This document shows, piece by piece, positions 11,549-57,479 of a stretch of DNA of 64,000 nucleotides (its first letter is position 1; every line of letters begins with the position of its first letter). The translations under genes and the position numbers were made by a program. The notes below the pieces were generated by a model that worked only from the letters and a program-made list of their open reading frames with translations, was not told the origin of the DNA and did no database searches. Location of the stretch: assembly GCF_000276665.1 (NCBI RefSeq), contig NW_004955404.1, positions 33,542,155 through 33,606,154 of the forward strand. Direction: 5' to 3'. Origin of the DNA: Chinchilla lanigera. Lineage: Eukaryota; Chordata; Mammalia; Rodentia; Chinchillidae.

Positions 11549-12420
11549 ATAACACCTTCTTTATCAAGGAGATCTGCCCCAACAGATGTGTTCATTTATT
11601 AGGAGTCTGATCCTCCAAATCAGTCATTGCTAACAGCAGAAGGGGCTGTTCAGTGTCTTCTTCATCCGTCCAGCAACCGTATTCCAAGATGACCTGATGA
11701 TTCACACCTAGGGGAGGACCTGTGTCCACATGTCATGCAAGCTCAGCTGTCTCCCCACCAACTGACCGTGTTTTTCATTTCGAACGCTCCCCTTTAACTT
11801 CCCCGCAGCTCCCCCACACCAACACCTCAACATCCTGCTAGGATCTTAGGGGCGCAAGTCACCCAAGAAGACCACACCTATAGTGGGCACAAAGAAGCAC
11901 TTCCCTTCGAGGAAGACTTGCCGCCCACTGCCAAGGAGTGACCGGCAGACTGCCGAGGCAAATGCTCCTTCCGCAGTCTCCCGTGGCTGAGCCGGGCCCT
12001 TCCTAGGGAAGCCCCAGGTGCTGTCGCAGACAGCGAGGGATGTAAAGACGCAGTCATTTGGGCCACTATGGGACAGTACCGGTGGTCGGCACTCACTCTG
12101 GCGCTCTTGGCTGGGTCCGCGCACCACCAATCTGATGGCGGCATTGCCAAGGTGGTCTAGTGGGAGAGGCATAGGTCAAAGCGGTAGCCAAAATAATCAA
12201 TTTCGCCTTCATAGAACGTGTAGGAACACACTGGGCAGATCCGCCATGTAAACTCAGGGAGACCGGAAACCCTGTCCTCATAAGGAAGGGTGCACAAGCA
12301 GGACTTTCAATAGCCCCACGCCGCGCCAGCAGGCTCAGAGCGCTGGAAACGTTAATACTAGCCCACGTGTCAGGGTCCATCCTGAGAGCCTCGGGCCGCC
12401 TGTTTGCTCTCAGCATGTCC
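11549..12420. other. CpG-containing stretch, no gene recognised
   Basis: CpG density rises between about 11990 and 12400. Open frames of 77 to 122 codons overlap on both strands without a recognisable domain, so they are not called as genes. Confidence 0.4.
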
Positions 12421-12429
12421 CCTGCTGAG

Positions 12430-12955
12430 TGGCGTCTGTATTCGTGTCCAGGAGCTGCCACAGCAAAGTGCCTCGGAGCTGCTGCAGTATTCCTTCAGTT
12501 CCAGAGGCTGGAAATCCAGCCTCGTGGTGTGCGCAGGGCCGGCGCTCTGGGAAGTACCACGGGGCCCTTCCTCGCCTCTTCCCGGGATGTGGTAGTGGTC
12601 ACAGTCTCCAGCGCTCCCTCACTCGCAGCTTCACACCGCGTCGTTCCGTGGCCTTCTGTGGTGTCTGCACTCGGGCCGCCCTCTGCGTGTGCCTCTCCTC
12701 AGAAGACTCCGGCATACCCCACTCTTCCTTGTTTTCCTTTTTCCTGCTCTTTGCTTCATTGCCATGCGTGGGTCTAACTGCGGTCCTTGCACATGCTAGA
12801 CAAGCAACTACCACTAAGCTACACCCCAGTCCTGACCTCATGCTAACTTGAGTATGTTTACAAGGCCCTGTTTCCAAGTATGGCCACATGCACAGGTGTC
12901 AGAAGTTAGAAATTAAACACCGCATCTTTTTGAGGGACATAATTAAACCCAAACT
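12430..12955 (+). repeat. ancient mammalian interspersed repeat, interrupted
   Basis: Words such as CAGTTCCAGAGGCTGGAAAT, then later AGGCCCTGTTTCCAAGTATGG and the tail GGGACATAATTAAACCC, follow the order of a common old mammalian repeat. A degraded inverted ID unit (about 12760-12833, GCTAGACAAGC to CTACACCCCAG) interrupts it. Family not named. Confidence 0.5.
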
Positions 12956-29755: not shown

Positions 29756-29760
29756 ACCCA

Positions 29761-29828
29761 GGTAAGCCCTCTAGGAGTGGTTCTATGGGTTCCAGGTAAG
29801 CCCTCTAGGAGTGGTTCTGTGGGTTCCT
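29761..29828. repeat. 34-bp tandem duplication
   Basis: Two adjacent 34-base copies (29761-29794 and 29795-29828) starting GGTAAGCCCTCTAGGAG. They differ at one clear position in the body (CTATGGG versus CTGTGGG), plus the last base. Each copy is preceded by CA, giving two CAGGTAAG donor-like words. Confidence 0.95.
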
Positions 29829-43900: not shown

Positions 43901-44062
43901 CTCTTGGTAACTAAGGTCCGGTGAACAGATTAATACTTCTGTATCCAAACAAATTAGGCAAATTTTCCCAGTAATATTTGGCTCTTGGTAACTAAGGTCC
44001 GGTGAACAGATTAATACTTCTGTATCCAAACAAATTAGGCAAATTTTCCCAGTAATATTTGG
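43901..44062. repeat. perfect 81-bp tandem duplication
   Basis: Copies at 43901-43981 and 43982-44062 are identical by eye, each running from CTCTTGGTAACTAAGG to CCCAGTAATATTTGG. It abuts the TA microsatellite. On the minus strand the 27-codon period produces a repeated peptide in an open frame, which is a by-product. Confidence 0.97.
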
Positions 44063-44219
44063 CTACATACTGGTACATTTAGCAAATATTTACCTGGTGC
44101 TTATCACATGCACACTAGGAAGGGCGCTGAGGGGACAAACGCGGACAAGAGTAGCCCTCAAAAACGGAGAGGGAAAGGGAGTGGCTCTGTTGTGATCCTG
44201 TCTGTGGTGGTATTAAAGA

Positions 44220-54570: not shown

Positions 54571-54619
54571 GATTATTGGCCTTTGGGTTCTCATGTAAGG
54601 TTTTAGAAAAGTGCACAGT

Positions 54620-54970
54620 TTCTCCCAGGTTGCCGGAGCAGTCCGCAGTAGTGAGGAGCGGCCTGATACTGCGGGCCTGTGATCAAAGACAGAATCTAGG
54701 GCCTAAGGGTCTCCCCTCCCGTGCGCCTTCCGGGCGGAGAGAGCCTGGCAGCGAAGAGCGCGTTTGGAGCAGCGCTGCCACTCGCGCTGCGCCATCTTGT
54801 TGCCTCCATCGCCCTGCCCGGATGGCTGCATCTGCCAGAGCCTAAAGCTCCGAGGCAAAAGCAGGCAGAAGACATCCCCTGCGAGCGGAGTCCAGTGATG
54901 TCGCCCGAGGACGTGCAGAGCGTAAGAAGAATGCAGACCGAATTCAGCCCTCGGGCGGGCGGCTGACCAC
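54620..54970 (+). promoter_or_regulatory. CpG-rich block upstream of TPT1 retrocopy
   Basis: Dense CpG with GCGCCATCTTG (YY1-type) at about 54789-54799 and a donor-like GAGCGTAAGAAG at about 54917. It ends about 50 bases before the retrocopy. Known retrogenes sometimes use neighbouring CpG promoters. That this one does is inference only. Confidence 0.4.
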
Positions 54971-55011
54971 AGCAACGCAGCGTTTCCAGCGACCCTGAGA
55001 ACTCACATATT

Positions 55012-55026
55012 GATAAGAACCCACGA
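55012..55026 (+). repeat. left target-site duplication of TPT1 retrocopy
   Basis: GATAAGAACCCACGA, identical to 56242-56256. The mRNA copy begins at the next base. Confidence 0.97.
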
Positions 55027-55139
55027 CTTTTCCGCCCGCTCCCCCCTCCCCCCGCGCGCCGCTCCGGCTGCACCGCGCTCGCTCTGAGCTCCCGGCTCCT
55101 GCTAAGCTTGCGCGGCCGCTGTCTCCCTCAGCCACCACC

Positions 55140-55307
55140 ATGATTATCTACCGGGACCTCATCAGCCACGATGAGATGTTCTCCGACATTTACAAGATCC
55201 GGGAGATCGCGGACGGGCTGTGCCTGGAGGTGGAGGGCAAGATGGTCAGTAGAACAGAGGGTAACATCGATGACTCGCTCATTGGTGGGAACGCCTCCGC
55301 TGAAGGC
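55140..55307 (+). CDS. TPT1: translationally controlled tumour protein, N-terminal 56 codons (partial, runs into gap)
   Basis: TCTP is an abundant cytosolic calcium- and tubulin-binding protein with guanine-exchange-related, anti-apoptotic and growth roles in eukaryotes. The visible frame starts [20 protein letters not shown] and passes the TCTP signature region ([15 protein letters not shown]) before the gap. No stop or frameshift is seen, and by eye it agrees with the mammalian protein throughout. The start has a strong context (CCACCACCATGA). The family is normally 172 residues; if the gap length is real, the frame would end near 55658, inside the N run. The 3' UTR begins as expected after the gap. 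Because this is a retrocopy, expression is unproven. The gap could hide disabling changes. Confidence 0.85.
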
Positions 55308-55707
55308 NNNNNNNNNNNNNNNNNNNNNNNNNNNNNNNNNNNNNNNNNNNNNNNNNNNNNNNNNNNNNNNNNNNNNNNNNNNNNNNNNNNNNNNNNNNNN
55401 NNNNNNNNNNNNNNNNNNNNNNNNNNNNNNNNNNNNNNNNNNNNNNNNNNNNNNNNNNNNNNNNNNNNNNNNNNNNNNNNNNNNNNNNNNNNNNNNNNNN
55501 NNNNNNNNNNNNNNNNNNNNNNNNNNNNNNNNNNNNNNNNNNNNNNNNNNNNNNNNNNNNNNNNNNNNNNNNNNNNNNNNNNNNNNNNNNNNNNNNNNNN
55601 NNNNNNNNNNNNNNNNNNNNNNNNNNNNNNNNNNNNNNNNNNNNNNNNNNNNNNNNNNNNNNNNNNNNNNNNNNNNNNNNNNNNNNNNNNNNNNNNNNNN
55701 NNNNNNN
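55308..55707. other. assembly gap, 400 N
   Basis: The run of N covers codons 57 onward and the start of the 3' UTR of the TPT1 copy. Expected missing sequence from a 172-codon protein plus a short UTR is near 370-400 bases, so the gap length is roughly right. Every open frame crossing it is artificial. Confidence 1.
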
Positions 55708-55879
55708 CTTGGATCTATCACTTGTCATAACTGGCTGCTGCTTGTCATCCACACAACACCAGGATTTTAGACAAATGGGATTGATGACATCTTGAACGCT
55801 TCGTTTATTTTGACCGTGTTTTATTTGGAGTGGAGGCATTGTTTTTTAGGGAAAAAACACATCATGTAGGTTGTCTAAA

Positions 55880-55885
55880 AATAAA
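55880..55885 (+). terminator. proximal poly(A) signal of TPT1 3' UTR
   Basis: AATAAA in the context TCTAAAAATAAAGTGC, the site used by the short TPT1 mRNA. Sequence continues past it, so the copied mRNA read through this site. Confidence 0.85.
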
Positions 55886-56192
55886 GTGCATTTAAACTCA
55901 TTTGAGAGAATGCCTCTTAGTTTAATACATGTATAAACTAAATCCATTATAGTGTTCGTGGAGAAGATAGCCTGGTCACAGACCACTGCTAAAAAGACCT
56001 AAGACTGTTTTCAGATAACTTCTGCAGTGGAACTGCTTCTGCGACTGGAACATATGACAAGAATCAGAGTTTTCTGAGTTGCAGTAAAGGGAAAAAGACT
56101 ATGTTCATAGCAGTGCCAACATGTGAAGTGGAGCCTTATATATTTCATCACCTACGATGGAAATAGTTAACCCTGGAAGAGATTACCAAAAG

Positions 56193-56198
56193 AATAAA
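56193..56198 (+). terminator. distal poly(A) signal of TPT1 3' UTR
   Basis: AATAAA 24 bases before the A20 tail, the signal used by the copied transcript. Confidence 0.85.
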
Positions 56199-56241
56199 AA
56201 GACGTAACTCAGTTGGAAGTTAAAAAAAAAAAAAAAAAAAA

Positions 56242-56256
56242 GATAAGAACCCACGA
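56242..56256 (+). repeat. right target-site duplication of TPT1 retrocopy
   Basis: GATAAGAACCCACGA directly after the A tail, matching the left copy at all 15 positions. Confidence 0.97.
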
Positions 56257-56897: not shown

Positions 56898-57100
56898 TAA
56901 ATTCTTTTTCTAATTTAAACAAATTCTGTGTCCTTATCTTAATGGACTTCACTGAGATGAATTGCTAGAGATTTCTTAACTTTTTGCCCTTTTTTTTTTA
57001 GGCAGCATGGAACTGTGGAGAAAATTGCATCTTTTGGGAGATTTTTAAAAGTCTATATCATAATTAACTCCAAGAGCTACCAAATATACTGCCACACTAG

Positions 57101-57193
57101 GGCTGGGGATATAGTTCAGAGGCACAAGTGCCTGCCTAGCAAGTGCAAGGTCCTGAGTTCGATTCCAAGTACAAAAAAAAAAAAAAAAAAAAA
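57101..57193 (+). mobile_element. ID SINE, first of a nested pair
   Basis: GGGCTGGGGATATAGTTCAG, GCCTAGCAAGTGCAAGG, GAGTTCGATTCCAAGTAC, A tail of about 20. CAAATATACTGCCACA at 57081-57096 is its left target duplication; the right copy lies beyond the next element. Confidence 0.95.
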
Positions 57194-57198
57194 CATTT

Positions 57199-57311
57199 AG
57201 GGGCTGGGGATTTAGCTCAGCGGCAAAGCGCCTGCCTGGCAAGCGCAAGGTTGTGAGTTCGATTCCTGATACCAGAAGAAAAGACCAAAAAAAGAAAAAA
57301 GAACAAAAAAA
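57199..57311 (+). mobile_element. ID SINE, second of a nested pair, near consensus
   Basis: GGGGCTGGGGATTTAGCTCAG, GCGCCTGCCTGGCAAGCGC, GAGTTCGATTCCTGATACC, A-rich tail. Both elements share one outer duplication (right copy 57312-57327), so this one entered the A tail of the first. Confidence 0.96.
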
Positions 57312-57479
57312 CAAATATACTGCCACAGGTGTGACTCTAAGGTTTTCCGGCGTCCAATGCAAGCAGAAAATACTGTTTCTTTTGGAACTGCAGATGGCGA
57401 AGGAGCGAAACAGGTGCAGTACGATCAACTGCAAACAGCCAAGTGCATCCCAGAGGCCGTCACTGTCCTACACGCTTCA

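Follow-up and report, generated by a model that had tools for sequence, protein, structure and literature searches.

A probably young processed TPT1 retrocopy with perfect 15-bp target-site duplications in Chinchilla lanigera

Introduction

Processed copies of TPT1 have been known since at least 2000, when Thiele et al., by the title of their work, reportedly described human and rabbit processed pseudogenes of TPT1/TCTP. When a mature mRNA undergoes LINE-1-type target-primed reverse transcription, the resulting copy has no introns, carries 3' poly(A) after the polyadenylation signal and is flanked by a target duplication, which measures 15 bp in the case described here. Retrocopies are often 5'-truncated or have mutated tails.

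According to two papers (PMC3337558, PMC6232380), the TPT1/tctp mRNA carries a 5'TOP and TPT1 has two alternative polyadenylation signals; in the former, the human gene consists of six exons and five introns. TCTP paralogues occur in mammals and not in other vertebrates, as stated in PMC7202613, and the two mentions of TPT1 in PMC7290577 refer to TPT1-AS1.

In this work, we analysed a 64,000-nt stretch of Chinchilla lanigera DNA (the window) that contains a TPT1 copy, which is an ordinary member of this known class. It resembles the human and rabbit pseudogenes in being a processed TPT1 copy, but it lies in another host and at another locus. It ends at the distal polyadenylation site and is bordered by perfect duplications. 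It also shares the TCTP domain and a similar N-terminal part with the mammalian proteins predicted as ‘translationally-controlled tumor protein-like’, which often number several per species; however, these have a readable frame, whereas codons 57-172 are missing from the chinchilla sequence. As in processed retrocopies mobilised by LINE-1 in general, there are a target duplication, a 3' A tail and an intron-free readable part, while, unlike in many of them, neither 5' truncation nor a mutated tail is seen. No paper on this copy was found in a search of the literature on TPT1/TCTP retrocopies, retrogenes and processed pseudogenes, which covered few subscription journals.

Results and Discussion

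Structure of the retrocopy

With a probability of about 97%, the stretch 55012-56256 (Table 1) is a processed TPT1 retrocopy, best explained by LINE-1-type retroposition of an mRNA that had been spliced and polyadenylated at its distal site. Direct support comes from the intron-free readable part, the 3' end at the second polyadenylation signal, the tail and the perfect duplications. Immediately after the first copy of the duplication, the sequence from 55027 on reads CTTTTCCGCCC; the insert opens at this position with CTTTTCCGCCCGC and closes with 20 A's that abut the second copy of the duplication. Its CTTTTCC, a TOP-like run of a C and pyrimidines, is the start of the 5'UTR of the copy, whose letters we take to be those of TPT1 from their place ahead of the TCTP frame. 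The ATG of this frame is at 55140 and codon 56 ends at 55307. No intron was seen in the readable 5'UTR and the 56 codons, the middle of the copy being N. Codons 1-56 are identical (56/56) to human TCTP in the PDB entries 6ize, 1yz1 and 2hr9, and the Pfam TCTP family (PF00838) was matched with 69.1 bits (cutoff 24.3). If the copy is full length, the N run covers the frame from codon 57 to codon 172 and its stop codon, as well as the very beginning of the 3'UTR. We considered whether the length of this run (400) could indicate the reading frame and rejected this, because a round N count need not equal the true length. The 3'UTR contains AATAAA at 55880 (proximal) and at 56193 (distal), and the part at 55905-56221 presumably belongs to the TPT1 3'UTR, as judged by its continuity between the two signals and by the position of the tail.

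Table 1. Features of the TPT1 retrocopy and of the adjoining DNA; position 1 is the first base of the window.
Feature	Position	Strand	Basis
CpG-rich host DNA, immediately 5' of the insert	54576..55011	.	Non-insert part of the CpG-island-like stretch 54576-55300
5' target-site duplication, GATAAGAACCCACGA	55012..55026	+	Exact 15/15 match to 56242-56256; also a repeat search
Presumed TPT1 mRNA 5'UTR, 113 nt, 14 CpG	55027..55139	+	Sequence, counts, place before the TCTP frame
TCTP codons 1-56, open	55140..55307	+	56/56 identical to human TCTP; Pfam PF00838
400-N run	55308..55707	.	Sole N run of the window; assembly gap or masking
Presumed long-form TPT1 mRNA 3'UTR, 514 nt	55708..56221	+	Continuity with the insert ends, two signals
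A20 tail without interruption	56222..56241	+	Begins 23 nt past the end of the distal AATAAA
3' target-site duplication	56242..56256	+	Exact copy of 55012-55026

An earlier note on this DNA had read the stretch as a TPT1 retrocopy, which is borne out by the 15-bp duplications, the A20 tail, the 56 of 56 TCTP codons and the PF00838 match. The duplications that it had called perfect are indeed identical at 15 of 15 positions and are anchored at both ends of the insert. Its cap-to-tail extent is supported as well, in that the TOP-like run directly follows the first duplication and the tail directly precedes the second; from this TOP-like start, the 5' end of the copy appears to be complete. The open N-terminal third that it had noticed agrees with the lack of any amino-acid change from human TCTP in codons 1-56, both polyadenylation signals and the A20 tail were found as described, and codons 57-172 do fall in the gap, as it had placed them, provided that the copy is full length. 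When the 10-mer at the presumed cap site was searched for as printed sequence, the matches listed included no paper on TPT1 or TCTP by title, and six stretches of the 3'UTR that were searched for as printed sequence in the literature gave no match.

Target-site duplications and origin of the copy

On the + strand of the window, the 15-mer of the duplication occurs exactly twice, at the two ends of the insert. It cannot be extended in either direction (T versus A on the left, C versus G on the right). The window is rich in repeats and has six other exact runs of at least 15 bases at spacings of 1000-1399. The N were taken out for this count, which puts the 15-bp duplication itself outside this range of spacings. 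Because such runs exist, it is the anchoring at both ends of the insert, and not the match alone, that constitutes the evidence: the position of the duplication is fixed by the insert ends and one alignment only is allowed, and for this reason we estimate the chance of an insert-anchored 15-bp match at about 4^-15. Since the flanks carry a common duplication, both sides of the N run come from one insertion.

This last point bears directly on the alternative that two different TPT1 copies were joined across the 400-N run during scaffolding. With 400 N, the gap has a round length, and mammals have so many TCTP-like copies that a misassembly within one is plausible; however, a duplication would not be common to two unrelated copies, and here the same 15-mer, which has just these two + strand occurrences in the window, flanks both the 5' half and the 3' half, which makes such an artefact very improbable. 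Even more improbable, to the point of being nearly negligible, is that the stretch is TPT1 itself, the parental gene, or was duplicated from it at the DNA level. Its high protein identity to TCTP would fit such an origin, but the poly(A) tail and the flanking duplications speak against it, as does a 5'UTR that continues without an intron into 56 codons when human TPT1 has six exons (PMC3337558).

As a processed retrocopy, the insert would have arisen as follows. The template would have been a mature germ-line mRNA of TPT1, capped, spliced and polyadenylated at the distal site. LINE-1-type machinery would have reverse transcribed it where the target DNA was nicked, and integration would have left a poly(A) tail and duplicated 15 bp of the target. 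The LINE-1 endonuclease has the consensus TT|AAAA. The top strand before the insertion reads ATATT|GATAAG, and its TT|GATA fits this consensus only loosely; LINE-1 is the enzyme that we infer. The template was presumably the long form of the TPT1 mRNA, because both polyadenylation signals were kept and the tail follows the second. This is the less expected template, as, according to PMC3337558, the short form usually exceeds the long one in abundance in mammals.

Relationship to other TCTP-like copies and age

The human TCTP query retrieved 1495 proteins, and among the matches listed there were several predicted TCTP-like proteins per mammal species; the 120 listed included at least three such entries of Heterocephalus, at least two of Chinchilla and at least four of Tupaia. 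A fragment search additionally gave 62 short TCTP-like proteins, including those of Heterocephalus, Fukomys, Sciurus and Marmota. These predicted entries are proteins alone and do not give an intronless or intron-bearing gene structure, and they suggest that mammals commonly have open TCTP-like copies. Residue 13 is Met in the retrocopy and in all 14 of the named squirrel, marmot, mole-rat and chinchilla entries, whereas it is Leu in 7/7 named muroid entries (Myodes, Microtus, Peromyscus, Onychomys, Mastomys, Sigmodon and Cricetulus) and also in the single Dipodomys entry, in a comparison in which some entries are possibly retrocopies themselves. Elsewhere among the 182 entries, Leu13 was found in Elephantulus, Tenrec and two more entries. 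Residue 25 is Asp in the retrocopy and in both Chinchilla entries, and Gly in five of the seven mole-rat entries. Met13 is a hint from the protein sequence that the copy may belong with the rodents outside the mouse-related clade.

The age was estimated under two assumed rates of change, 4.5e-9 and 2.2e-9 per site and year. The absence of changes in the 30 bases of the duplications gives a 95% upper age of 22-45 My, and even after 10 My these 30 sites would be unchanged with a probability of 0.26-0.52, so the duplications date the event poorly. The codons give a narrower figure: no amino-acid change over 132 nonsynonymous sites corresponds to a neutral upper bound of 5-10 My, and for a neutral copy aged 10 My the probability that all 56 codons keep their amino acids is 0.003-0.055, both values presuming that the N-terminal part of the parental protein equals that of human TCTP. 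Among the 120 listed proteins, which are the best 120 of 1495 and represent 90% clusters with non-mammals included, eight are identical to the copy at 56/56 residues; none of these eight bears a rodent name and, therefore, this presumption is unconfirmed for rodents. Moreover, the unchanged codons could also reflect selection. The 14 CpGs kept in the 113-nt 5'UTR are not clean evidence of youth either, since the copy adjoins a CpG-rich stretch that may be unmethylated. We infer an age of a few to about 10 My at most. The ‘fairly recent’ insertion of the earlier note thus finds weak support in these and better support in the 56 unchanged codons.

Coding capacity and the CpG-rich flank

Of the frame that, according to the earlier note, could still encode TCTP, codons 1-56 are open and the N run takes up the other 116 of the 172 codons together with the stop codon. 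The copy is probably an ordinary and young processed TPT1 copy, and it most likely has no present role, being a young processed pseudogene. That it is instead a functional TCTP retrogene is unlikely; in such a gene, all 172 codons would be intact and maintained by selection, and transcription would start in the CpG-rich stretch next to it or from promoter elements that it carried along. The 56 codons without an amino-acid change, the CpG-rich stretch immediately upstream and the frequency of full-length predicted TCTP-like proteins in mammals would be in line with such a gene; however, 56 intact codons are not unlikely for any copy aged less than about 5-10 My, and, because open TCTP-like copies are apparently common, an intact frame would be unremarkable without expression or selection. 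The adjacency also carries little weight: with thresholds of GC >= 0.5 and o/e >= 0.6, the window has 22 CpG-island-like stretches, the adjoining one at 54576-55300 included, so an insertion beside one of them is not striking, and we rejected it as evidence of expression. A more specific version, slightly less probable again, is that of a young, complete TCTP retrogene of a non-muroid rodent that would be expressed from a pre-existing CpG-rich promoter-like stretch with its own TOP leader and long 3'UTR. If this were true, mTOR-type translational control would have been copied along with the TCTP coding part.

The host DNA at 54576-55011 is a possible promoter donor for the copy, as judged from its composition. 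By eye, a splice-donor-like AGC|GTAAGA was seen near 54921, with an ATG eight codons earlier. This segment could be a first exon of a putative transcript, in or beside which the copy would have landed. A 143-aa antisense frame at 54699-55127, which lies partly within the 5'UTR of the copy, had no Pfam match, nor did eight other long frames taken from the 77 ORFs of at least 110 aa in the window.

Whichever its role, a near-identical TPT1 copy with a central gap calls for caution in annotation and qPCR, as it invites wrong gene models and mis-mapped reads; some qPCR studies use TPT1 as a reference gene. The preferred reading, a processed retrocopy, also makes the locus a genomic record that a germ-line mRNA of TPT1 used the distal poly(A) site in a rodent lineage other than that of mouse and rat. 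This record is mildly informative, given that the TPT1 mRNA with the long 3'UTR is stated, in PMC6232380, not to be expressed in mouse and rat.

Other features of the window

The longest CpG-island-like stretch of the window, at 11776-12825 (1050 bp), is possibly, by its base composition, the promoter of a putative gene; the 200-aa frame at 12175-12774 within it had no Pfam match. No tRNA genes were found in the window by ARAGORN (bacterial code) and no families by Rfam at gathering scores. An 81-bp unit at 43901-44064 forms a perfect tandem duplication (2.0 copies, 100% match), which is either very recent or an assembly artefact, and a 34-bp unit at 29758-29827 is repeated 2.1 times with a 97% match. 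SINEs gave 30 B1-like and 23 ID-like loose matches, some of which are due to chance or double counting, the family names being presumed; their abundance suggests a rodent host. When these SINEs were looked for as printed sequence, the matches were, by title, a mouse tsRNA paper and a blood-meal paper. At 57081-57327, two tandem ID-like SINE units lie between identical 16-bp duplications, CAAATATACTGCCACA (57081-57096 and 57312-57327), which looks like the single insertion event of a dimer or of a nested pair.
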